This document shows, in pieces, positions 1,846-45,040 of a stretch of DNA of 64,000 nt. The DNA comes from an uncultured Candidatus Poseidoniales archaeon (GTDB taxonomy: Archaea > Thermoplasmatota > Poseidoniia > Poseidoniales > Thalassarchaeaceae): the NCBI GenBank assembly GCA_905182515.1, contig CAJJBW010000001.1, positions 82,275 through 146,274 on the forward strand, in the 5' to 3' direction. The position numbers and the translations under genes were made by a program. Under the pieces are notes generated by a model, which had not been told where the DNA came from, searched no databases, and saw only the letters and a list, made by a program, of their open reading frames with translations. Positions within the stretch are counted from its first letter, which is position 1, and each line of letters opens with the position of its first letter.

Positions 1846-2091
1846 ATGGAAAATGCAGAGGTGGAGATTGTTTGGAGAGGCACTAAAAGACATGCAGAGT
1901 TACTTCTATCATCCATATCTCCAGATGATCCAGAGTCTTTTTTTGCAGAAATAATTGAAAATGAAAGTGGTTCAGAATTAAAGATAAAAGTAGTCTCTAA
2001 AGATTTAAAGAGTATTAGAATAACTATAGATGACTTACTAGTTTGTTTGGCTGCAGCGGATTTAAGTTTAGATGTAATTGAAGAAAAATAG
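1846..2091 (+). CDS. pcc1: KEOPS complex subunit Pcc1
   Basis: Small 81-residue protein of the Pcc1/CTAG family, the dimerisation subunit of KEOPS, which makes threonylcarbamoyladenosine at position 37 of ANN-decoding tRNAs. Seen: an alternating beta pattern in the first half (VEIVW, LKIKVVS), then the family hallmark region SIRITIDDLLVCLAAAD around residues 55-70, where the Asp and the helix of small residues match other Pcc1 proteins. The length is typical of archaeal Pcc1. No other KEOPS gene (kae1-bud32, cgi121) is in the window, so the subunit is encoded apart from its partners. An inverted repeat lies directly upstream. Short length leaves a little doubt. Confidence 0.8.
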   Translation: MENAEVEIVWRGTKRHAELLLSSISPDDPESFFAEIIENESGSELKIKVVSKDLKSIRITIDDLLVCLAAADLSLDVIEEK

Positions 2092-2151
2092 TATTTTGCT
2101 TGGGAAAATTGAGATACGACTATTCAAGATACATGTTCGATACGGATTAAT

Positions 2152-3090
2152 ATGGTTGAGTTACCGCATGACCGTTCCAAACTTCTTTGGGACGGAAATA
2201 TTGTAACGGGTAAACCGACTTCTTTTTTCATCCAATCTATGGATGGTTGGCTCAACGCCATGGTATTTGATGAACAAGGAGGCGGCGACGGGTCTCAAAA
2301 ATTAGTAAGAGGAAAAGTAATTTTGAAGGAAGATGGAATAATTTGTGGTCAACCTGTAATAAATAGATTAGTTCAAAGGCATTTTCCTGCTTGTGCAGTA
2401 TCTTGGTCTGTTGTTGAAGGTGAAGAAGTAAAGAAGGGAGAAAACATATTAGATATAACTGGTAAATCAGTAGAGGTTCTTAAAATAGAACGAATATTAT
2501 TAAATATTTTAGGAAATATGTCTGGGATTGCTACAAATACAAATAAATGGTCAAAAAAGGCATCAATGTTGAAAGTAGCTGCAACTCGTAAAACGGATTG
2601 GGGACTATTAGACAAATGGGCAGTACACATTGGAGGCGGTTTGACCCACAGACTTAGCAGAAATGACGCCTTAATGTTAAAAGAGAATGATTTTATTTCA
2701 TTGAATACCAAAGATGAAACTAATTCTGAAACAATTAGAAGAGTTGTGAGTGAACTAAAAACTTATCAAGGAGATTTTATAATTATTGAAGTTCAAAATT
2801 TAGAGGAGGCTTTTATTGTCGTAAATGTTTGGAAAAACATACTAAACAAAGAAAATAGAATAGTATTATTATTAGATAATATTGGACATGATCAGGCAAA
2901 AATAGTATCAATATCTTTAGAAAAAAATGGTTTAAGAGATTATTGTATATTGGAAGGGTCTGGTAATGTTGGGTTTAACTCTCTTGAAAAATGGTCTAAT
3001 AGTGGGGTTGATTTAATTTCATCGAGTGCCCTAAATAGAGGAAATAGGCCTTTAGATTTGACTATGATATTGGAGGGAACTATTGTTTAA
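2152..3090 (+). CDS. nadC: Nicotinate/quinolinate phosphoribosyltransferase family (NadC-like)
   Basis: Type II phosphoribosyltransferase fold. NadC makes nicotinate mononucleotide from quinolinate and PRPP, with CO2 release, in NAD synthesis. Seen: N-terminal domain to about residue 115, helix ERILLNILGNMSGIAT, ATRKT near residue 146, IGGGLTHRLSRNDALMLKEN around 162-180, then IIEVQNLEEA and LLLDNIGHDQ, and a C-terminal SGNVGFNSLEKWSNSGVDLISS. Several family positions differ: TRKTTPGLR of typical NadC reads TRKTDWGLL, and the KDNH/KENH motif reads KEND. These residues contact the substrate, so a nicotinate phosphoribosyltransferase of the same fold, as known in Thermoplasma, is an alternative. 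It overlaps the next gene by one base (TAATG), implying translational coupling. Confidence 0.8.
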   Translation: MVELPHDRSKLLWDGNIVTGKPTSFFIQSMDGWLNAMVFDEQGGGDGSQKLVRGKVILKEDGIICGQPVINRLVQRHFPACAVSWSVVEGEEVKKGENILDITGKSVEVLKIERILLNILGNMSGIATNTNKWSKKASMLKVAATRKTDWGLLDKWAVHIGGGLTHRLSRNDALMLKENDFISLNTKDETNSETIRRVVSELKTYQGDFIIIEVQNLEEAFIVVNVWKNILNKENRIVLLLDNIGHDQAKIVSISLEKNGLRDYCILEGSGNVGFNSLEKWSNSGVDLISSSALNRGNRPLDLTMILEGTIV

Positions 3091-3875
3091 TGACTAAAAT
3101 ACCACAAAATCACCCTAGATACAAGTCTTTAATCGCTAGGAATAAGTTAGTTGAGGCATCAAATGATGGCCTACTAGCACAATCTGCAATGATAGCACAC
3201 GGGAGAGGAGAGGCTTTTGATTACCTGCTAGGTGAGAAAACCTCTGAATCTGCTAATTTGGCCATAAAAGAGGTTGCTTACAGGTTAAAGAAATCAAAAA
3301 AGCCAATAATATCAGTAAATGGAAATACAGTAGTATTAGCAGGAGAGGGTTTGATACGTATTGCAGCAGTTCTAAAATGTCCAATAGAAATAAACCTATA
3401 TTATGGGACCAAGGACAGAGTTGTAAAGTTATTAGAATTACTAAAGGCGCAGCAACTAAAGGTATCTAGAGAATTACCCCCAATTGGTTGGACTGGAAAT
3501 TGGCCCGAGTCGGTAATTTCTGTAAAAATACTGGGACAAGAAGAAGATGGGAGGATTATTGGTTTAGAGGGCCCTAGGTCTATTTGTTCTGCAGATGGGA
3601 TACAAGATGCAGACACTATATTGGTCCCACTAGAAGATGGCGATAGATGTGAGGCACTTGTCGCATTAGGAAAAGTGGTTTTAGTAATAGATTTAAATCC
3701 ATTATCAAGGACATCAAGAAAAGCTTCAGTTACAATTGTAGATGAAGTTGGGCGGGCCGTGGGCGTTTTATTAGATGAAATTGTTAATGAAAAATATATA
3801 AGAAATAAATGGAACAATGAATTAATACTCAAAGATGCGCTGGAAATCATTTCAAAATCTATGGAAATTTTTTGA
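3090..3875 (+). CDS. 4-phosphopantoate--beta-alanine ligase (archaeal PPS)
   Basis: Archaeal phosphopantothenate synthetase (formerly DUF137). It joins 4-phosphopantoate to beta-alanine with ATP in the archaeal route to coenzyme A. Seen: the N-terminal IPQNHPRYKSLIAR, the strongly conserved AMIAHGRGEAFDYLLGE at residues 32-48, SVNGNTVVLAGEGLIRIA near 75-92, and the C-terminal TILVPLEDGDRCEALVALGKVVLVIDLNPLSR-type region. The length, 261 residues, is normal for the family. The ATG overlaps the stop of the nadC-like gene, so the two cofactor genes form one transcription unit. It converges on rlmH with only 18 bases between the stop codons. Confidence 0.93.
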   Translation: MTKIPQNHPRYKSLIARNKLVEASNDGLLAQSAMIAHGRGEAFDYLLGEKTSESANLAIKEVAYRLKKSKKPIISVNGNTVVLAGEGLIRIAAVLKCPIEINLYYGTKDRVVKLLELLKAQQLKVSRELPPIGWTGNWPESVISVKILGQEEDGRIIGLEGPRSICSADGIQDADTILVPLEDGDRCEALVALGKVVLVIDLNPLSRTSRKASVTIVDEVGRAVGVLLDEIVNEKYIRNKWNNELILKDALEIISKSMEIF

Positions 3876-3893
3876 AATACTTTCTCCATTATA

Positions 3894-4328
3894 TTATTCT
3901 CGATGATAAGAACTACCCCTAACTATTTCAGTAGCACGGTATAATTGTTCCAGTAAAATAGAGGCTGCCATTTCATGTGTAAAAGTCATTTTAGAAAGAG
4001 ATATTGAATTATTTATTTTAGATTTAAATTCTTTACTAAATCCATCAGGAGGGCCGATTGCAAAATTTGTAGCTTGTGAATCGAGTAAAATTTGTGAAAC
4101 TAATTCAGATAATTTTTTACTTGTTATTTGGTTACCTTTTTCATCAATTAACATTAATTTACCAGGAAAGCTGGAAAGTAATTGCTCATAATCAAGTTTA
4201 CTTTTTTTATCAGAATGAAATTTTAAAGATACTCCTCGGCTTTGTAAACGATTGGAATAATCATCAATTATAGACGATTGAGAAGTGTCTTTGGGTTTAC
4301 CAAATAAGTGTACAACTATTCTACCCAT
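3894..4328 (-). CDS. rlmH: Ribosomal RNA large subunit methyltransferase RlmH
   Basis: SPOUT-class methyltransferase; in bacteria RlmH methylates pseudouridine 1915 of 23S rRNA in helix 69. Seen: N-terminal VVHLFGKPKD, a central segment ending LMLIDEKGNQITSKKLSELV, the SAM-knot FAIGPPDGFS and the C-terminal LSKMTFTHEMAASILLEQLYRATEI followed by a Tyr-His close to the end. The usual IGG reads IGP here. The start chosen is the ATG at 4328, giving 144 residues, close to the family norm of about 155. The frame runs open to 4433, but that longer form would overlap the divergent gene at 4394 and adds nothing conserved. Confidence 0.9.
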   Translation of the reverse strand: MGRIVVHLFGKPKDTSQSSIIDDYSNRLQSRGVSLKFHSDKKSKLDYEQLLSSFPGKLMLIDEKGNQITSKKLSELVSQILLDSQATNFAIGPPDGFSKEFKSKINNSISLSKMTFTHEMAASILLEQLYRATEIVRGSSYHRE

Positions 4329-4393
4329 TGATATTACGAAATGAAGGTTGGTAATAGTGGTTCGCAAAGCATCAAGAATAAATACATTCACGG

Positions 4394-4723
4394 ATGAATG
4401 ATATGAGTAGATGGCGACGTCGGCGTAAACCAAAACCCTTTGTCGAAGAACCTCATATGCGTGGCACGAGGATGTGGATACAAGATTTACGAGAAGTTTG
4501 CGAAAAGTCTTTTGATAACTACACAGAAGGTCAGCTTAAAGTCAGAGAGATGCAGATAGAATGGAAAGATGCTCATAAAAAAGGTGAAATTACAGATTTA
4601 TTACTAGAAGGACTAGATAAACGGGCTTTCAGGCTACTAAGATCTGATGCCAATGAATGGTTAGAATGGTTGGATGATGATAAGTTTTGGAATCCAGGAT
4701 GGAAGGGCGAAGTGATTGAATAA
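4394..4723 (+). CDS. Hypothetical protein, basic N-terminus
   Basis: Not recognised. The 109-residue product starts with an Arg/Lys cluster (SRWRRRRKPK), followed by a largely helical, Trp-rich and acidic body (WIQDLREVCEKS, WLEWLDDDKFW). No Cys pairs and no membrane segment are seen. Starts are possible at 4394 or at the fourth codon (4403); the basic stretch is kept either way. The stop codon overlaps the ATG of the membrane-protein gene at 4723, so they are probably co-transcribed. It diverges from rlmH. A nucleic-acid-binding role would fit the basic tail, but that is a guess. Confidence 0.65.
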   Translation: MNDMSRWRRRRKPKPFVEEPHMRGTRMWIQDLREVCEKSFDNYTEGQLKVREMQIEWKDAHKKGEITDLLLEGLDKRAFRLLRSDANEWLEWLDDDKFWNPGWKGEVIE

Positions 4724-5430
4724 TGATTTCGTTGGATTTTTGGATTTTTTTCTATATTATGATTGGGTTGATTATTCTTTATTATAGTAATTATCAACCA
4801 TTTCCAGAAATTGGAGGAAAGTATGGTTGGTTAGTAATATCATTTGGAGTGATATTTTGGATTTCTAGTACTGCACCTCGCGAGACCATGAGTGAAGTAC
4901 CAGCATTATTTTCAACCTTTTTAGGAGGGACAGGGGTTATTTTTGGAGTTAGGCACATGGTTATTACAAAGCATGATGTTATTTTGGCTCCTTTTAGTGG
5001 GGTATTATTTTGTTTAGGTTCAATAGATTTGCTTACAAAAGACTGGGCTTACACAACTTCCTCAGAACAAATAATATCTTTTATGATAGCAACTCTAATA
5101 GTAACATTAGAAATATATCTTGCTTTTAGGGGTTTAGTGGTTGGTGTTCCTGGAATATCTTGGTCAAAATCGGGACTGAGGCAGATAAATAGAGGGCTCA
5201 TCTACGGAGATAATGGTGCCATTTCCCACTTTGAGAAATCTTGGGACATGAATGACCCCTGGTTAAATGCAATGAGTCATGCTGTGCTAGTATTAATCTA
5301 TAAAAAAATTGGAAATAAAGAAGAAGGAGAACGCCATCTATTAGAATTAGAGAAAGAAGGTGGCTGGGAAGTTGTTGATAAATCTTGGATTGATGCAATA
5401 GAAAAATCATTGGCTGGTATATCTGTATAG
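4723..5430 (+). CDS. Integral membrane protein of unknown function
   Basis: Not recognised. The 235-residue product has about five hydrophobic segments in its first 140 residues: near 5-22, 34-50, 65-80, 86-104 and 115-140. A soluble C-terminal domain of about 90 residues follows, helical and rich in charged residues, with a pattern that could be a TPR-like helical pair (WLNAMSHAVLVLIYKK, then KEEGERHLLELEK). It starts on the overlapping TAATG of the upstream hypothetical gene, so the two should be translated together. Spacing to the cobalamin adenosyltransferase gene is 46 bases. Confidence 0.65.
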   Translation: MISLDFWIFFYIMIGLIILYYSNYQPFPEIGGKYGWLVISFGVIFWISSTAPRETMSEVPALFSTFLGGTGVIFGVRHMVITKHDVILAPFSGVLFCLGSIDLLTKDWAYTTSSEQIISFMIATLIVTLEIYLAFRGLVVGVPGISWSKSGLRQINRGLIYGDNGAISHFEKSWDMNDPWLNAMSHAVLVLIYKKIGNKEEGERHLLELEKEGGWEVVDKSWIDAIEKSLAGISV

Positions 5431-5476
5431 AAATGCACGAACGATTCAAAATATCATAGCCCATCGGAAGAACAAG

Positions 5477-6088
5477 ATGGTTCGTATAACTAAAGTTCAT
5501 ACAGGAGGAGGAGATACTGGAGAAACGTCTCTATTAGATGGAAGAAGAGTTGGTAAAGGCGACCCTCGAGTTGAATTATATGGTACAATTGATGAATTAA
5601 ATTCACAAATTGGAATTGTGAGAATGGAAATGAAAAGATACGAGGCGCCTTTAGAAGTTAAAGAAAATACTGATTTTGCGTTAGGAAGAGTTCAACAAGA
5701 ATTATTTGATGTAGGCGGAGAGTGTGCATGTACCCCAGGTAAATTGCCATCTATGATGGCATTAATTGGAATTTATGAAGGAGATAAATTAGTGAAAGAA
5801 ATGGATACATGGTTAGAAGATGTTGCTCCTCTTGAATCCTTTATTATGCCTACTGGATCACCACCTATTGCAACCTTACATGTTGCAAGAACTGTTGCAA
5901 GAAGAGCAGAGAGGCTCGCGTGCCTATTACGAGAAAATACAGGAGAAGATTCGGTCAGAGTAGAAATAATATCGTATCTTAATCGCCTATCTGATTGGAT
6001 GTTTGTTATGGGCCGTTGGATAAGTACAAAATGCGGAGATAAGGAAGTTCTCTGGACTCCACTTGGAATGAGGCATAAGAACGATTAA
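5477..6088 (+). CDS. Cob(I)alamin adenosyltransferase, PduO/MMAB type
   Basis: Transfers the adenosyl group of ATP to cob(I)alamin, making adenosylcobalamin. Seen: N-terminal VHTGGGDTGETSLLDGRRVGKGDPRVELYGTIDE-type ATP-binding region at residues 6-40, here with the conserved TGGGDTG and the following Arg, then the helical bundle with TLHVARTVARRAERL near 133-147 and SYLNRLSDWMFVMGRW near 168-183, which hold the conserved Arg and Asp residues of the active site. At 203 residues it is of normal length. The product is the cofactor of the class II ribonucleotide reductase encoded at 17001, giving a functional link inside the window. Its stop overlaps that of the convergent Nudix gene by four bases. 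Confidence 0.95.
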   Translation: MVRITKVHTGGGDTGETSLLDGRRVGKGDPRVELYGTIDELNSQIGIVRMEMKRYEAPLEVKENTDFALGRVQQELFDVGGECACTPGKLPSMMALIGIYEGDKLVKEMDTWLEDVAPLESFIMPTGSPPIATLHVARTVARRAERLACLLRENTGEDSVRVEIISYLNRLSDWMFVMGRWISTKCGDKEVLWTPLGMRHKND

Positions 6089-6498
6089 ATTGATTTTCCA
6101 ATACTATTTCTATAATTTAGCGCTGATTCAAGAAGTATTTTTTCTTGATTAAAAGTTAGTTGTTTTAAAGTATCTGAAAAATTCAACCATAAATAGTTAG
6201 TGTGCTCATGAGAAAGTTTTACCTCTAATTCCTCTGTTTCAGCCAAAAACCAAAAAACCTGTTTTAGTATTTTCTTTCCTTTCTTTTTGAAGGTATACTC
6301 AGTACGAAAACTCCAAGAAGTATCAATAATTATTTTTTCAATACCGGTTTCTTCGGTTAATTCTCTTAAAGCAGTTGAATGGTGATCAGAATCAGAATCT
6401 TCAATATGCCCTTTTGGAAAGCTCCAATGACCCTGAGGATATTGGAGGATAAGTATGCTGTCAAAGTTAATTAAAACAAACCCACAAGACGTTTCCAT
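6085..6498 (-). CDS. Nudix hydrolase, Ap4A-hydrolase-like
   Basis: Small Nudix hydrolase resembling diadenosine tetraphosphate hydrolases and other house-cleaning enzymes. Seen: SCGFVLIN strand, QGHWSFPKGHIE at residues 22-33 and the Nudix box at 30-53, ending ALRELTEETGI. The box is atypical: from Gly30 to Arg45 is one residue longer than the usual Gx5Ex7RE spacing, and the first Glu position is Asp or Ser. The catalytic REL-x-EE part (Arg45, Glu46, Glu49, Glu50) is intact, so metal binding is probably preserved. Substrate not determinable. Its stop overlaps the stop of the cobalamin adenosyltransferase gene. Confidence 0.88.
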   Translation of the reverse strand: METSCGFVLINFDSILILQYPQGHWSFPKGHIEDSDSDHHSTALRELTEETGIEKIIIDTSWSFRTEYTFKKKGKKILKQVFWFLAETEELEVKLSHEHTNYLWLNFSDTLKQLTFNQEKILLESALNYRNSIGKSI

Positions 6499-6614
6499 AT
6501 ATCTGCTAGGGAACGTTTGCCTATCGTAATTTTGTATAAAAATTAAAATTTCAACACTTTGAATAATCTGAATCTACGAAAGTACCATGTGATTAGTATG
6601 TTCGCTTCAATAAA

Positions 6615-7595
6615 ATGCATTCATCGGCTCTATCTCTAGACATTCGCCGAATAATAACTGATAGTGATTTAGATGGGGTTGTAACTGCTGCTATTCTAAA
6701 ACGGCATTGGCCTCATGCAGAAGTAATATTTGGACATCCTGGGGAATTACGAGCAGGAGTTTTAGATGGCTTAATAGATAATTTTACTGCGATTTGTGAT
6801 TTACCAAGACATTCAAAGTGTGGATTGAATATTGATCACCATCAATCAAATAAGCCACGAGATAATTTGAATTTTGATGGAATAGTTATTTGGGAAAATT
6901 CTCCTTCTGCTGCACGGATTGCTTATGATTTATTACACGAAGCTGTCGATTTGGAAGATTTAACAGAATTGTTATTATGGGTTGATAAAATAGATAGTGG
7001 ACAAATAACAAAAGATGAATATTTATCAGAAGAGCCTGTGTTATTATTAGGAAAAATAATTGGAATTGATCTTGATATAAATTTACATATATTAACTGCA
7101 GTTAAGAATGGCGAATCAGTAGAATCCATATTATCAAAAGAAGAATTGGTGCCATATTTAATTGAAATTCAAGATAATAAAATTAGGATTAAAGATATAA
7201 TTGAAAAAACTATGGAAATTGTCAATAGACTAGCAATTGTAAGGTTTGAAGGATCAGGGGTACGTTCCAACGGATATCATGTTACTGCCAAAGCAGGAGG
7301 AGATTGCGATGCTTGTATAATAATACACGGAGACATCGGAGGGACATTTACCGAAGAGGGTGGTTATCCTGTTTCAGCATCTTTTTATACAAATTCTTTT
7401 CTTCATAATGAAGGGGGAATATATGACTTAACACAAATGGCAAAAAGGTTTGATCCTGACGGAGGAGGTCATTCAAATGCATGTGGATGTAGGATTAAAC
7501 CTATAAAAAATGGTATTATTGAAAATAGAGATTTAAATGTGTCCGACATAGAAAAGAATATTTACGAATGGATTTCTATGTGGAATGATAAATGA
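6615..7595 (+). CDS. DHH/DHHA1 family phosphoesterase
   Basis: Metal-dependent phosphoesterase of the DHH superfamily (RecJ-like nucleases, nanoRNases, cyclic-dinucleotide phosphodiesterases). Seen: motif I ITDSDLDGVVTAAIL with Asp16, Asp18 and Asp20, motif II AICDLPRHS, motif III NIDHHQSN near residue 73, a later Asp in LLLWVDKIDSGQI near 125, and the DHHA1 substrate-binding signature DPDGGGHSNACGCR near residues 285-298. All metal-binding motifs are present, so it should be active. The substrate could be short RNA, nucleoside phosphates or cyclic dinucleotides; the sequence does not decide. Its stop abuts the stop of the convergent membrane-protein gene. Confidence 0.87.
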   Translation: MHSSALSLDIRRIITDSDLDGVVTAAILKRHWPHAEVIFGHPGELRAGVLDGLIDNFTAICDLPRHSKCGLNIDHHQSNKPRDNLNFDGIVIWENSPSAARIAYDLLHEAVDLEDLTELLLWVDKIDSGQITKDEYLSEEPVLLLGKIIGIDLDINLHILTAVKNGESVESILSKEELVPYLIEIQDNKIRIKDIIEKTMEIVNRLAIVRFEGSGVRSNGYHVTAKAGGDCDACIIIHGDIGGTFTEEGGYPVSASFYTNSFLHNEGGIYDLTQMAKRFDPDGGGHSNACGCRIKPIKNGIIENRDLNVSDIEKNIYEWISMWNDK

Positions 7596-32584: not shown

Positions 32585-33313
32585 GTGGGTAGTAGACTAT
32601 TGCAAATTGCAAAGTGGTTGACACTAGCATCTTTCTTATTGCTTTTAATTGGAGCAATAGGGATTGCATTGATTGATGACGATAGCCTAAATATTTTAGA
32701 TCCAAGTGTTACGAACATGGCTGAGTTGTCTCCCGACAGTAGTAAATCAATATCTCTAGAAAATCGCGGAATTTATGTTGCACTTAGAATACCGGGTGAA
32801 GAGACAGAATCAAATTTAAGACTGATTGATAGTTTAGGAGAAGAGGAGAGGGGGCGAACCGCTAATTGGTATGATTTTCCTCGAACTGGTACAGATGGTA
32901 CCATTTATGATACCGTTAGAGTATTTGAAATAAACAATGATGGGGATTTTATTTTATATAATGAAGGTAATAATACCCTTTGGCTTGTTGATGAGACTTC
33001 AAATCAAGCCGATATATTAGGTGAGTTTTCTTTTTTAATTGTTAGCCTAGGATGCTGCCTTGGTATAATAACTGGGATTTTAGCATTATTATTAGCCCTA
33101 ATAGGTTGGAGAAGAAGATCAAAGGAAACTAATGTAAAAATTGGCATAGTTTCAGATATTTTAATCGAAAACCAGAATACAAAAATAAAAATTATTAAAT
33201 CAGAAGGAAAAATACCCGATCCGTTCATAGATAATAGGAAAAATACCGAATCAGATACAGTGAAAAATAACGAGAAAGATAATTTTTGGCAAGATTGGGA
33301 CAATCAAGAATAA
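32585..33313 (+). CDS. Membrane protein of unknown function, two helices
   Basis: Not recognised. 242 residues starting at GTG 32585. One hydrophobic segment lies near residues 10-32 and another near 145-173; between them are about 110 residues of extracytoplasmic, beta-looking sequence (ENRGIYVALRIPG, DGDFILYNEGNNTLWLVD), and after the second helix a charged cytoplasmic tail. No catalytic motif was seen. It follows top6A by 38 bases and precedes the ArsR-type regulator by 52, all on the same strand, but a functional link is not evident. Confidence 0.65.
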   Translation: MGSRLLQIAKWLTLASFLLLLIGAIGIALIDDDSLNILDPSVTNMAELSPDSSKSISLENRGIYVALRIPGEETESNLRLIDSLGEEERGRTANWYDFPRTGTDGTIYDTVRVFEINNDGDFILYNEGNNTLWLVDETSNQADILGEFSFLIVSLGCCLGIITGILALLLALIGWRRRSKETNVKIGIVSDILIENQNTKIKIIKSEGKIPDPFIDNRKNTESDTVKNNEKDNFWQDWDNQE

Positions 33314-34106: not shown

Positions 34107-37100
34107 CTAAAATCGTATATCATCTTCATCTGGCTTGGACATCAGACTAGTTTTTTCTGCAAATGACTGTAGAGCTTCAATTCTCCTTCCATACATAACA
34201 AATCCTGCCACGCCAACCAATGAGAATGTGGCTCCAAGGATGATGGTTGGAACAGAATAACGAGCTACAACATCAATTACAACATCGCCAAATCCTAGAT
34301 TTGAGCTCATTTCACCACCTGGGATTTTCATTATGTTGTTTGTCTCATCGGTTTCAACGATATCATTACCTGAATCAACTACCACCACTACATCATGATT
34401 TCCTGCCGTAACAGTATAAAGTAGAGTGATGGGGTCGGGGTTTTCTAAACCTCCATCGCCTATTGGCATAATTGCCTTAATTAATTGTGTATAGACAATG
34501 TTTTTCTCATCGCATCCATTTTTCTTAATATCACTAATTGATTGATCTTTACATAAAATAACGTTTACATCGGTTGCATGAGCATTTCCACGATTAACAA
34601 TTTTGACACTTACAGACAGCATTTCTCCAATGTTTCCTTTTTTAGACCCTATAATAACTTCTAAAATTTCTAAATCAGGAGCCCTTAATCTTAATTCTAA
34701 AATCTGCTCGTTTGTATCGCAATCAGGTGAAAAATTATCAGGTAGGCCGTCTTTATTAGAATCTAATGTACAAGAATCTTCCCATCCGGGCGTTTCATCA
34801 TGATCTCCTTCATTTTCTGAAGAACCATGCATAGAAAGTGCTTTGATTCCTATTTCCCTATTTTGTAATGCTGCATCTGGAGCAATAGAAACAATTACAA
34901 CTATTTGTAAAGTTGTATATGCTTCCATGATAGGTAACGTGAGAGCCCCAGTTTGTGCTGAAAGATAACATCCTTCGGTTGGTATTGGGTCTGCTAAAGT
35001 CAAGAAATTTGGAGATTGCCCTATACACAAGCTTTCAACAGGGTATTCCGTGTTAAATCCTTCTAAAAGTGCAAATTGTATTTCCCAATTTGACAATGTA
35101 TTCATTCCGGGCATGATACCCCATCCTCCAGCAGCATCAATTGTATGATTATGCAGTGTAGGTTGGTCTGCAACATTTCCAAAATTAGTAACATTCAATG
35201 TAAATCTAACAATTCTACTTGGTGCAGTGGTTTTTATTTTACTTTCTACAGCAGGGTCTAGAGAGATTCTCATGTCGTGGAATTCTATTATGTTTATATT
35301 TAGAGAGATAGTATCTCTTAATCTAGTGCCTTGATATTCTTCTTCACTATATATGTTGAAGGTAATCGTATATTGGCCTGCTAATGTCTTATCTGGAACG
35401 TTGATAATTATAGGATATTCTCCTATTTCATCCCTATCTAACTCTCCAAATAATATTCTTGGTATCTCAATATCCCAAACGTGAGAATTGCCTTGAGAAT
35501 CAATTATAGATTCTATAGTCATATCAAATCTGTCTGGCCCATTACCTAGATTTTCTATGTTAGTATCCATTTGATATGGCTGACCTGGATATAAATCTAA
35601 TATGTTTTCAGAAACTGTGCCATCTAAATCATATCTTTGGATGATGTTTGTTAAAATTACAACAGAGTCTCGAATTTTGGGTTGCCCTTCTAAATATGAC
35701 CTGACAGTAATAGAATCCCCCAAGCCAGCTGTCGCATTGTAAGGAGCGCACATTATTGCGGTTACAGTATAGGGTGTGTTAATTTGTGCCCAATATCTTG
35801 GTGCATCATCTGCTGGACCATTGCCCCCTGGTGCATTTGTAAAGTCTAAATCTACGGTCCAATGATCATATCGCCATGTTTCTTCGGTCCAATTAGATGG
35901 TTTTTCATCTGGTGCACCGGGAAGAGTAAATACTAGATATCCTGGTGTAAAATGTTTGGTAACTTCTATATCGAATTCAGCACATTCACCAGGTAAAACG
36001 TATTGTGTAGTATCCCCCATAGAGAAGACGATGTTGCCAGTAGATCTGGTTGAGACATTTATCCAGAGCTCTAAAATGTCATATGTCCCTCTATCCACAG
36101 AAAGTACAGGTTCCCCTGTTGACCATCCTTTTAGATATATAACAAATGTTCCGGGTTCCTGTGATGATGGTACACTAACTTGTAAATTTTTAGTTACAGA
36201 CTGCAACGGATCTAAGGATATTGAAGTAGGAAAATCAATTCCCCAGCCGAAAGGTAAGGCCCATTCATTTTGGCCCTCTAAAGTAGAAGGGTCATAGAAT
36301 GCAAATGTATCAAACACATTACCTGTATTTTTAATAGACACAGAAAATACAGCTGATCTGCCTTGCTCGATATCTACTTGAAAGTGGCTTGTGTCTAACT
36401 CAATTCCATGAACAACATCCATAAGAGTTAAAGTTATTCTTTCATTTCGAATTGCTGGATCTTTATATGAGATTGCAGATATTGTTACCTGGGCTAATTC
36501 ATCTTGTTTCGCTTGATATATTGTCGGTGCTCTTAATCTCATATATATTGGAACAACTTCACCTCCATCCAAATGAAAAGGAGTAGAGTCGAATATTGGT
36601 GTATTATTAGTGGCATAAAATAATGTGGCACTCCAATTTGTTGGAACTCCTTGCATAGTTACAGTAAAGGTATCTTGGACTAATTCTGCTGGCCCAGGTG
36701 TAGGGTTAGCTATTGTCATATTATAGGTTGTTAATTCACCAGGGTATATTGTATGATAGAAAGTCTCTGCATCAGCAGGACAATCGTAAGGATGGCCTTC
36801 TAAATTTGGGTTAGCAATTACTTTCTCATCACATGCTAAAGAAATATCCACTAAACCTGTCAATACATGAACATAACATAATGTATATTTTCCAGCATTG
36901 GTTTCTTCGCTACATTTGTTAGTATCTGACCAGCCAAGGTGTGCGCCACTTCCTAGGTCATTGGAAAATGCTGGTGTTTGCCCTAAGTCAGGGGTGGCGG
37001 GCGAATTTGGCCCTAATTTGTCTGATTGCCAAGTAGTAACGGGAATAATTGTCCATGGATCAAATATTGATGATGCTATAGAATTTAGAGGGAAGCCATC

Positions 37101-39281
37101 TGGATGTGCATTATTTGTATGATTTAAACGTGTATAAACGATAGTCTCTCCTTGCGTTTCGTTATAATTATCCAACCATGCTAAGTGCACATTATCAAAG
37201 GAGTCTGTGATTATAGAAGGTAAATGAGAGTTGGCCCCAAATGGTCGATCTGGATCCAAACCAGCAAGTCCTTCTACTTCTGATATAGCGGCATCGGCTA
37301 TTTGTTTTATGCCAAAAGTTGGTAATCCTTCTGCTGCTCCATCCCATTCTGCTGATCCCCTTAATTTTAATCTAGTATAATATATTTCATAATTAACATC
37401 AATGTCAAAACCATAAGATCTTCCATCTTGCCATGCTAGATGGGTTAATCCAGAGGAATCTAAAGCAATTGCTGGATGTAAGCTATATGCATCATTTAAA
37501 GTAATTCTAGTATCATTTACGACTACTAAATGGCCATATCCTGAAATATCTTCAGATGGACCAAGATCTTCGGTATATGTGTTAGTACTAGAATCACTTT
37601 CAGTCCCAGAGTCTCCTTTAGTCCAACCTGGCCAAGGTCTGTCAATAAGTGAAAGTGGATCTAATACTGTCATATATATTTCTCGAGAATTATTTGTTGC
37701 CAAATAAACCATTGCTTCAACCATTATTTCCAGCTCTGTTGAGCTAGTTGACGAAGTAGGAAAACTATACATTTGGCCACCTGCATTTGTTAATCTTAGG
37801 TTATTACCGTTACAAGTTCTTGCATTTAAACCAGATCCGTTTGGACACTGTGCCATATCCATCATGTATGATCCAACATCAGTATCCGAACCAGCCCACA
37901 AAGGAGTGGGAATTACATCTGCTTCAACACAAGCATCATGAGATTGTGCTATACTTTGAGTATCGTCGTTATCTTGTGGCGTTCCACCATATGGTCCTTC
38001 ATCAGAAATTGGTATTACAATTTTTGTAGCATTTGGATTCCAATGATGATCTTTTTGTGTTGGTGGATTACCGGGAACGTTGCCATTAGCATCTTTCCAG
38101 GATAAGCATGCCCATGTAGCAGCAGGTCCCCAAAATTCACTAAAATAACCGCCATCAGCGGGTAAATCCACTGCAGCATTATTGTAAACTACTTCATCTA
38201 AGTACCTAATTCCGCCAGAATTATCGCTTGGAGATGATCCCAGTGGCGTATTTCTAGGTCCATTGCTACCTGATCCACCAGTTTGGTATGCATTTGCGCA
38301 AGCACCGCTTTGAGATGCTGCTGGCCAATTGCCACTTAATGCATATAATGTTTCGTAAACAGTCATATTTGCACTTTCAAGTAGTGGTTTTAATCCGGGG
38401 AAGGCCCCGCCGCTTGCAAAATTACCTCCATAAAATACAACGCACATATCGGCCCATTCAGTATTCATTGATCCTGATGTATCAATTGGAACGACCATCT
38501 CTACCTTACCACCTCGCGTATCATCCCATACAATTTGTACAAAGTTATCTACGTCTACTGCGATATCTGGGTGCCCTTTATGACCTAAAATAGGGGTTAA
38601 TAAAGTGCTGTCAATAGCTGTTAATGCTTCTCTAGAAACGTGATCTATTTCAAGCATTTTATAATATATTTGAGGTTGTTGATAAAATTTTCCCAGTGGT
38701 TCAAATGAATCTTCCCAAACTATATGGGCATCATTATTAGAATCTACATCGATAGCAGGATAATCTCTATTTTGAGGATTATTTGAAACTTCAAAATCAT
38801 CTACAATAGAAATTACTGAGTCTAAGGCCGCATCTCCACTTCTGTCATCTAAATATGGATCTAAGAGTGTATACATTATTGAATATTGTCCTGCTTTATC
38901 TGTCCAGACGATGTGGACTTTATCATCGTTATCAACAGTAATATCAGGATGCCATGCACGATGATTACCAGGGTTAGAAATTTGAGTAGCAGAGATTACG
39001 GTTTCTCCTCTAGGATCCTGCATCTGATAGAAGAGATGTTGGGTATTACGGCTGAAAACCAAATGTATGTTACCATTAGAATCCGCATCTATAGCCATTC
39101 CTCTATCATTGTGTGTACCGCTATTTACAATTTGTATTGCATCAGTAAGAACGACATCGCTTGCCTCTGCCTGTGGTATCTCTAATGCAGAAAAAAGGCT
39201 TAATACCATTATAAAAACCATAGTTATACTATTTCTAACCTTGATAGAATCTTGGCTTCGACTATGCTGATGCTCGTACAT
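34107..39281 (-). CDS. Giant surface protein: beta-propeller with inserted vWA, CARDB, C-terminal anchor
   Basis: About 1724 residues from ATG 39281 (TTG 39302 is also in frame). A basic start and hydrophobic run near 20-40 ending in QAEASD form a signal peptide. Residues about 50-800 carry repeated motifs of the form HIVWxD followed by IxYxxL (IHLVFSR, HIVWTDK, HIVWEDS, QIVWDDT, HLAWQDG, HLAWLDN, HLGWSDT), like propeller blades. Within the fourth blade sits a von Willebrand A domain with the MIDAS motif DTSGSMN (Asp267) and PISDEG near 427. Beta-sandwich repeats follow, then a CARDB-like domain near 1570-1660, a membrane helix near 1688-1710 and a short charged tail. Many N-x-S/T sequons are present. 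It is probably a glycosylated adhesion or envelope protein; the ligand is unknown. Confidence 0.88.
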   Translation of the reverse strand: MYEHQHSRSQDSIKVRNSITMVFIMVLSLFSALEIPQAEASDVVLTDAIQIVNSGTHNDRGMAIDADSNGNIHLVFSRNTQHLFYQMQDPRGETVISATQISNPGNHRAWHPDITVDNDDKVHIVWTDKAGQYSIMYTLLDPYLDDRSGDAALDSVISIVDDFEVSNNPQNRDYPAIDVDSNNDAHIVWEDSFEPLGKFYQQPQIYYKMLEIDHVSREALTAIDSTLLTPILGHKGHPDIAVDVDNFVQIVWDDTRGGKVEMVVPIDTSGSMNTEWADMCVVFYGGNFASGGAFPGLKPLLESANMTVYETLYALSGNWPAASQSGACANAYQTGGSGSNGPRNTPLGSSPSDNSGGIRYLDEVVYNNAAVDLPADGGYFSEFWGPAATWACLSWKDANGNVPGNPPTQKDHHWNPNATKIVIPISDEGPYGGTPQDNDDTQSIAQSHDACVEADVIPTPLWAGSDTDVGSYMMDMAQCPNGSGLNARTCNGNNLRLTNAGGQMYSFPTSSTSSTELEIMVEAMVYLATNNSREIYMTVLDPLSLIDRPWPGWTKGDSGTESDSSTNTYTEDLGPSEDISGYGHLVVVNDTRITLNDAYSLHPAIALDSSGLTHLAWQDGRSYGFDIDVNYEIYYTRLKLRGSAEWDGAAEGLPTFGIKQIADAAISEVEGLAGLDPDRPFGANSHLPSIITDSFDNVHLAWLDNYNETQGETIVYTRLNHTNNAHPDGFPLNSIASSIFDPWTIIPVTTWQSDKLGPNSPATPDLGQTPAFSNDLGSGAHLGWSDTNKCSEETNAGKYTLCYVHVLTGLVDISLACDEKVIANPNLEGHPYDCPADAETFYHTIYPGELTTYNMTIANPTPGPAELVQDTFTVTMQGVPTNWSATLFYATNNTPIFDSTPFHLDGGEVVPIYMRLRAPTIYQAKQDELAQVTISAISYKDPAIRNERITLTLMDVVHGIELDTSHFQVDIEQGRSAVFSVSIKNTGNVFDTFAFYDPSTLEGQNEWALPFGWGIDFPTSISLDPLQSVTKNLQVSVPSSQEPGTFVIYLKGWSTGEPVLSVDRGTYDILELWINVSTRSTGNIVFSMGDTTQYVLPGECAEFDIEVTKHFTPGYLVFTLPGAPDEKPSNWTEETWRYDHWTVDLDFTNAPGGNGPADDAPRYWAQINTPYTVTAIMCAPYNATAGLGDSITVRSYLEGQPKIRDSVVILTNIIQRYDLDGTVSENILDLYPGQPYQMDTNIENLGNGPDRFDMTIESIIDSQGNSHVWDIEIPRILFGELDRDEIGEYPIIINVPDKTLAGQYTITFNIYSEEEYQGTRLRDTISLNINIIEFHDMRISLDPAVESKIKTTAPSRIVRFTLNVTNFGNVADQPTLHNHTIDAAGGWGIMPGMNTLSNWEIQFALLEGFNTEYPVESLCIGQSPNFLTLADPIPTEGCYLSAQTGALTLPIMEAYTTLQIVVIVSIAPDAALQNREIGIKALSMHGSSENEGDHDETPGWEDSCTLDSNKDGLPDNFSPDCDTNEQILELRLRAPDLEILEVIIGSKKGNIGEMLSVSVKIVNRGNAHATDVNVILCKDQSISDIKKNGCDEKNIVYTQLIKAIMPIGDGGLENPDPITLLYTVTAGNHDVVVVVDSGNDIVETDETNNIMKIPGGEMSSNLGFGDVVIDVVARYSVPTIILGATFSLVGVAGFVMYGRRIEALQSFAEKTSLMSKPDEDDIRF

Positions 39282-39342
39282 TAGTCTTTTCACATTTTTC
39301 AAATACTTAACTCAACCCCCTTATGGTCACTTCTAATAAAAA

Positions 39343-43468: not shown

Positions 43469-44950
43469 TTACTCTGCGAAACTAAGTGCTAATTTTCTTA
43501 CAGATGCTGCTGCATCAATCATCTTATAACCTGCACTTTCAGCATGTGCACCAGCAGAAATAGATGTATGTAAAACGGTGCTCAATAATGTTTCGCCCGA
43601 TGCCAGATTTAAATTAATTTGTACCGGACGGCTTCCAGAAACCGTATTTGGCCAAGCTAGACCAACCCATAAAGTAACACAGGAATTTAATTTTTCAGTT
43701 AATGCATTAACGATATCTTCTCCCTCAATGCCGAGTGCTACTGCAGATTTCAAACGTTTTGAAGATGGAGATTGTAATCTTATTATTTGAGAAGTTGGTT
43801 CTCCTTCTGCTGATATTATTTCAATTTCTATTGTTTGATTTCTACCTGAAAAATTGTGTACCATTGCTATAACATCAGTCTGACCCTCCGATGCTACAGG
43901 AGGTATTTCTAAATCCATTCTCCACTTATCCTCAATTATTGAGCTATGTCCTCTTTGAACATCACCGACTAACCTATCAATTACTCTAAAAAAAGATGGT
44001 TGCCAGCTTTTTGTATGTTGCAACAGTATTTGTAATGATTCTAAATTAAATTTATTATCTGATTTCAAATAATCAGTTGCAGATACCTTGAATACCCTAT
44101 TAATTTCTCTAAACATTCTATCTCGATCAAGTAATTTTAACGAATTGAGGTGAAGTATTCTCAATAAATATTCAACTGCTTCTTCAGGGTTTGTGTGCCT
44201 TCGAACTTTTTTTTCCAATGACTTAATCCATTCTTCAAAGTATGATGCTGTTTCAGGGTCTAAATGGGCAACCAATATCTCAGTAATCACTTTTTCAAGT
44301 GCACTGTGGTGTAATGTGGGTGCATGCAATGATAATAGTGGAAATAAATTATCCCGCATTGGTATCTCTCCTGAATCCAATGAAATTGATAACAATAAGC
44401 AAAAAATACCCAATACTATTGCTGCGCCAACTATTATTGAACCTAATATTGCACCTGTTTGAAAAGAAGTAATAAAATATAATAAAATTGCACTGACCAT
44501 GGTAGATGCTAGTCTTGTTGTTTCTAACACCCTTCTCTCTCTGAGAGTATTTAGGATACGTTCGGTTCCTGGGATTGAATTTATTGATTTCTTATTATCT
44601 GTGGTTTTCAACTGAAGTCTATCTCTTGCGGACATTTGAGCAAAGATAATCGCAAAAAAACTAGGTATTAACAATAAAAATAATAATATAAATAAAAAAA
44701 TGCAAATTTTAATACTCGTATATTTTAACTCAAAGTAACTGAATGTTAAATATATTGGAGTTAAAAGTGCTAAAAGAATACGAAATTGTTGTAAAATTTG
44801 ATAAGAAGCAATTTTTGTCCATAGTTTCCTTCCAGTATCTCTTGCCTTGACTCGACGATATAAAGAGTTTTTATTTCCTGATCCATAAGTACTACCAATC
44901 CCATAAGGTGTAGGTAGTTCCTGAGGCTTATTCACATGTCTCCGACCCAT
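43469..44950 (-). CDS. Membrane protein with large cytoplasmic domain, unknown function
   Basis: Not recognised. About 493 residues from ATG 44950 (an upstream in-frame ATG at 44983 is possible). The N-terminal 45 residues are polar and Gly/Arg-rich. Hydrophobic segments lie near 60-78, 80-105, and as a pair near 145-190. Residues from about 200 to the end are soluble: a helical section (YFEEWIKSLEKKVRRHTNPEEAVEYLL) followed by a beta-rich module (DVIAMVHNFSGRNQTIEIEII). No catalytic motif was found. It lies between the flavoprotein gene and the tRNA-Arg gene, with little space either side. Confidence 0.65.
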   Translation of the reverse strand: MGRRHVNKPQELPTPYGIGSTYGSGNKNSLYRRVKARDTGRKLWTKIASYQILQQFRILLALLTPIYLTFSYFELKYTSIKICIFLFILLFLLLIPSFFAIIFAQMSARDRLQLKTTDNKKSINSIPGTERILNTLRERRVLETTRLASTMVSAILLYFITSFQTGAILGSIIVGAAIVLGIFCLLLSISLDSGEIPMRDNLFPLLSLHAPTLHHSALEKVITEILVAHLDPETASYFEEWIKSLEKKVRRHTNPEEAVEYLLRILHLNSLKLLDRDRMFREINRVFKVSATDYLKSDNKFNLESLQILLQHTKSWQPSFFRVIDRLVGDVQRGHSSIIEDKWRMDLEIPPVASEGQTDVIAMVHNFSGRNQTIEIEIISAEGEPTSQIIRLQSPSSKRLKSAVALGIEGEDIVNALTEKLNSCVTLWVGLAWPNTVSGSRPVQINLNLASGETLLSTVLHTSISAGAHAESAGYKMIDAAASVRKLALSFAE

Positions 44951-45040
44951 GTTTAATCCTTGATGGCATCGGCGATTTAACAAGAATATCCTTCTTTCAT
45001 CAACAATACCTTTCTTGAAGCATGTCCTCTCGCGAGGGTT

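Follow-up and report, generated by a model that had tools for sequence, protein, structure and literature searches.

A vWA domain with a complete MIDAS nested in blade 4 of a seven-bladed propeller in a predicted core surface protein of Poseidoniales

We describe a protein encoded on the minus strand of the window, by which the whole analyzed stretch of 64,000 nucleotides from an uncultured Candidatus Poseidoniales archaeon is meant. A domain of the vWA fold occupies residues 266–538 of this protein. Its metal-ion site (MIDAS) is complete, and in the predicted structure the segments on both sides of the domain belong to one seven-bladed propeller, the fourth blade of which is split by the insert. 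The reading that we prefer, with a probability of about 0.62, is that this is a core surface protein of Poseidoniales, that the nested vWA serves as a cation-dependent binding head via its MIDAS, that it was inserted in the stem of the order, and that the architecture is convergent with that of the integrins with an alpha-I domain. Also new here is a case in another genome in which, as judged from sequence comparisons, a paralog appears to have received the vWA alone as a copy of that of the core gene. No description of the protein was found in the literature searched.

The features of the gene and its product are collected in Table 1. The ATG at 39281 is codon 8 of the TTG-started open reading frame 34107–39302. 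The nearest named relatives are found in assemblies of Candidatus Thalassarchaeaceae (Marine Group IIb), and full-length core copies across Poseidoniales have 47–92% identity to the window protein. The initial annotation had described a long surface protein anchored at its C-terminus, and both the length and the hydropathy peak near the C-terminus agree with this. A tail of the RR...EKSS kind, resembling that of the window protein, is present in the f1 orthologues. Stalk residues 1212–1330 give a sub-threshold match to choice-of-anchor T. The signal-like N-terminus and the C-terminal membrane helix would together display the propeller and the stalk at the cell surface.

Table 1. Coordinates of the propeller-vWA gene and of the parts of its product within the window.
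Feature	Position	Strand	Residues	Remarks
Propeller-vWA surface protein gene	34107..39302	minus		1731 aa from TTG 39302; 1724 aa from ATG 39281
N-terminal hydrophobic stretch, likely signal peptide	39171..39230	minus	25–44	hydropathy peak
Propeller part 1: blades 1–3 and strands 1–2 of blade 4	38508..39155	minus	50–265	
Inserted vWA domain	37689..38507	minus	266–538	splice scan, AF2 model, Foldseek
MIDAS motif 1, DTSGS	38469..38483	minus	274–278	
MIDAS Thr318	38349..38351	minus	318	invariant in 88/88 aligned homologues; assigned as the MIDAS threonine by sequence pattern
MIDAS Asp434 (PISDEGP)	38001..38003	minus	434	invariant in 70 non-paralog homologues and in 17/18 paralogs
Propeller part 2: strands 3–4 of blade 4 and blades 5–7	36825..37688	minus	539–826	
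Putative beta-rich stalk	34683..36815	minus	830–1540	'beta-rich' suggested by weak family matches
CARDB domain	34332..34682	minus	1541–1657	Pfam PF07705, E 1.4e-8
C-terminal transmembrane stretch	34188..34253	minus	1684–1705	highest hydropathy peak of the protein
Putative short cytoplasmic tail RRIEALQSFAEKTSLMSKPDEDDIRF	34110..34187	minus		topology suggested by charges

Blade motifs were searched for with the pattern [HQ][IL][VAG][WF]x[DR] over residues 46–830. All seven motifs that had been claimed for the first 800 or so residues were found, at residues 80, 130, 193, 256, 621, 706 and 788, while 5000 composition shuffles yielded 0.008 motifs on average and never more than one. The fourth motif lies in QIVWDDTRGG (residues 256–265) and is followed by DTSGSM (residues 274–279), and REIYMTVLDP starts at residue 540. 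The structure of residues 46–850 was predicted by AlphaFold2 (AF2) from an alignment of 64 sequences, with pLDDT 86.1 and pTM 0.84. Blade 4 of the model contains strands 242–249 and 255–261 before the insert and strand 541–547 after it (model numbering plus 45). In Foldseek searches single seven-bladed propellers align over approximately 800 columns across the insert (5mvh, TMt 0.61; 7esl, 0.59; 5uam, 0.50). The closure of the ring, like the propeller face assigned to the insert below, is judged from the secondary structure, the pTM and these whole-fold alignments.

The exact borders of the insert were determined by a splice scan. The flanks of blade 4 were joined artificially in 960 ways, and each join was scored against a blade profile for which only insert-free propellers from other families had been used. 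The top join, G265 to S539, scored 31.3 bits, compared to 22.6 bits for the native sequence and 24.9 bits for the 95th percentile. Given this best join, the insert comprises residues 266–538, that is, 273 residues. The homologous junction is also top-scoring in four of the six homologues tested; it is not the best one in the other two, which are distant paralogs. The claim that a vWA with a full MIDAS interrupts the fourth blade, which resumes at REIYMTVLDP, is therefore upheld by the join, by the AF2 model and by Foldseek. Taken alone, the sequence is also compatible with two separate folds on either side of the vWA, but a pTM of 0.84 over the whole span, the alignment of single-propeller structures across both parts and a single, sharply defined join that restores a canonical blade leave very little room for this arrangement. 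The initial annotation had named structure prediction as a check, and the prediction returned one propeller, not separate folds.

Uninserted surface propellers with blades of the RIVW/HIVW type and with Asp-boxes occur in archaea and bacteria; they differ from the window protein in having no vWA in blade 4. They are found across the phylum, and the blade motif [H]xVWxDxRxGxxEIYY is common to them and to the window protein. In these relatives the Asp-box comes after the EIYY strand (e.g. EIYYANSTDSGQSW). In propeller blades the Asp-box is positioned between strands 3 and 4; by this register the vWA is placed, on sequence grounds, in the loop of blade 4 that leads from strand 2 to strand 3. The loop between strands 3 and 4 was considered as the insertion site and ruled out by the position of the Asp-box after EIYY in the relatives. 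The strand 2–3 loop is on the propeller face that carries the ligand-binding loops of integrins, and the insertion is likely to be on that face as well. The search for insert-free homologues, proposed earlier, was successful in part: uninserted propellers were found in the phylum, but an uninserted orthologue was not. The NCBIfam family PDIAV_lipo matches the window protein below its threshold (46.7 of 90 bits).

The PF00092 profile has no match in the window protein, nor across the genome to which the window belongs, and neither the whole protein nor the vWA profile found a match in sequence searches of PDB. The domain is identified as a vWA because of its MIDAS, its Foldseek matches and its relatives elsewhere, some of which pass the PF00092 cut-off. 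The AF2 model of the isolated domain has pLDDT 82.8 and pTM 0.86, and nearly all of the 50 PDB matches listed by Foldseek for it are vWA or I domains, including integrin beta I-like, collagen VI, TRAP and LapA. TMt was 0.52–0.54 for the integrin alpha-M I domain and 0.53 for VWF A1. The E-values are modest: the best among the matches listed is 0.003, and none is below 0.001. The profile of the domain finds surface proteins in another Thermoplasmatota family, with E-values down to 1.5e-14. In giant surface proteins of that family (L154–L158) the vWA is of the same subtype and has the motifs WGPGTSW(C) and PISDE; it differs from the window vWA in being situated among non-propeller domains and in being about 80 residues shorter. 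Two of four such non-propeller vWAs pass PF00092 (25.3 and 23.9 versus the cut-off of 23.8).

The gene was matched in 95 of the 98 genomes of the order, and the position of the vWA is identical in every near-full-length copy aligned. Both families keep the gene order DUF2299 gene – propeller-vWA gene – ArsR-type regulator, and in many genomes topoisomerase VI follows outside this conserved trio; an acyltransferase gene also belongs to the conserved neighborhood. Two further conserved neighbors, at 43469–44983 and 32585–33313 of the window, have no Pfam match. In the family sampled from the same class, the vWA had no match and the propeller matches were all weak. Given the order-wide presence, the synteny and the absence of vWA matches in the same-class family, we consider the gene to be a core gene of Poseidoniales. 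The design had been called unusual for a planktonic archaeon; within its group it is the rule. The insertion dates most simply to the Poseidoniales stem, where the propeller may have acquired a vWA of a subtype that surface proteins of Thermoplasmatota already had. We infer the direction of insertion only indirectly, because no uninserted orthologue was found. One genome has a contig-cut second copy (L088, 7260–8912), 66% identical to the window protein, in tandem just downstream of a full copy (1982–7108), which suggests a duplication in that genome.

The MIDAS residues D274, S276, S278, T318 and D434 do not vary among the 70 aligned non-paralog homologues, and six cysteines of the vWA are invariant in 88 of 88 homologues. 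Metal-dependent adhesion by the domain is a plausible function. The vWA would bind a conserved ligand via a divalent cation held at the MIDAS, and the propeller would be its rigid platform. In the main alternative, the same architecture would be mainly a structural, surface-layer-like element of the envelope, with the vWA making self-contacts between copies. Such a role would fit a gene that almost all genomes of the order have in synteny and that is conserved, not hypervariable; it would also fit the invariant cysteines and the loss of the MIDAS tolerated in some paralogs. We nevertheless regard it as rather unlikely, since the core gene keeps all of its MIDAS residues, the several paralogs per genome suggest diversified binding, and Pfam recognizes no lattice-forming family in the window protein.

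The paralogs share the insertion site, and the identity is 50% in the vWA versus 26–31% in the propeller parts, a constraint that we count in favor of the binding-head reading. At least five of the 18 paralogs have damaged MIDAS residues, so in some members the fold is kept without the full site. In L106–L109 and L121 the damaged motifs read DSSTGM, DSSGGM, GSSTGM, DSSYWDGM and PNPTNGYM, and the insertion site is retained. In eight paralogs (L111–L116, L122 and L177) an extra 150–270 residues separate the core of the vWA from its last helix. This segment has no Pfam match and adds a third level to the nesting: a domain is set in the vWA, which is itself set in a propeller. One group of paralogs contains TSP3-like repeats (a sub-threshold Pfam match). 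Adhesion in Poseidoniales was earlier inferred from archaellum, thrombospondin and flotillin genes (PMC6461757), and these paralogs may be part of that 'thrombospondin' count.

The vWA appears to be exchanged between genes. The paralog L110 of genome G074 is 85% identical to the core gene of the same genome (L173) in residues 266–520 of the window-protein numbering and only 20–37% identical to it outside the vWA, with change points near 265 and 510. Where the two proteins have identical residues, the same codon is used in 71% of cases inside the vWA versus 40% outside (Fisher p 1e-11), and selection on the protein does not account for this difference. The propeller tree places L110 far from the core gene, and a tree in which the core vWAs of the family stand together with L110 excluded was rejected (AU p 0.003). 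The best reading of these observations is that only the vWA was transferred, by gene conversion or recombination, with the core gene as the probable donor, so the vWA can apparently move as a cassette. A second candidate, L119 of G027, shows 80% identity in the vWA versus 19–34% in long flanking segments (AU p 0.002). Its synonymous signal, 0.61 versus 0.50 (p 0.018), is no larger than that of two orthologues, 0.68 versus 0.58, and in a 30-row tree it possibly stands beside its sister paralogs. The case for cassette copying is therefore counted as strong for L110 alone, the codon signal of L119 not being decisive. Mis-binning is a caveat for both, as G074 and G027 are binned assemblies. A second core-like copy in G027 (L089, contig C14) resembles another genus, which points to mis-binning or transfer.

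Copying between paralogous propellers would change the binding head and keep the scaffold. A broader proposal would make the nested vWA an exchangeable head cassette: in a family of propeller surface proteins maintained by Poseidoniales, gene conversion would repeatedly copy it from the core gene to paralogs and so re-equip their scaffolds with a binding domain, and the integrin-like design would have an independent origin in archaea. We advance this proposal tentatively and give it somewhat less than even odds. With its paralogs that show MIDAS loss, further nesting and cassette copying, the protein would allow one to test by comparison how nested heads come about and function. A conserved surface protein of these archaea is now named, and it is a candidate for their attachment to particles or cells.

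PilY1, a bacterial surface adhesin, likewise combines a vWA with a seven-bladed propeller, the vWA being N-terminal to the propeller (PMC11891296). The window protein resembles the PilY1/PilC pilus-tip proteins in this pairing on a surface protein, and differs from PilY1 in that its vWA is nested and that the conserved neighborhood, in which ten genes were compared, has no pilus genes. By analogy it might be a sensor of force or surface contact, with deformation of the vWA transmitted through the propeller and the membrane helix to the tail. In the AF2 model just a few residues lie between the last vWA helix and a blade strand, and a short tail does follow the membrane helix. We consider such a sensor quite improbable, given the different position of the vWA and a conserved neighborhood (DUF2299, acyltransferase, ArsR-type regulator) with neither a pilus gene nor a signaling partner.

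Integrin alpha subunits have a stalk, a single membrane helix at the C-terminus and a short tail. These three features, together with seven blades and a nested vWA with a MIDAS, are shared by the window protein and the alpha subunits with an alpha-I domain. In the latter, the vWA sits between blades 2 and 3 of a seven-bladed propeller and gives a precedent for a nested vWA that binds its ligand through the MIDAS (PMC3192720, PMC12422189). The window vWA splits blade 4, whereas the integrin insert follows blade 2; the FG-GAP repeats of integrins have no Pfam match in the window protein, and its propeller has a single Ca-loop-like match. With no FG-GAP repeats recognized and another insertion point, the window protein is outside the integrin alpha subunits. 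Their alpha-I form is still its closest architectural parallel, and the likeness is probably convergent. A key step in how chordate integrins evolved was that a propeller gained a MIDAS-type vWA, and the protein described here represents a second, apparently independent case, fixed across an abundant uncultured order of ocean archaea.
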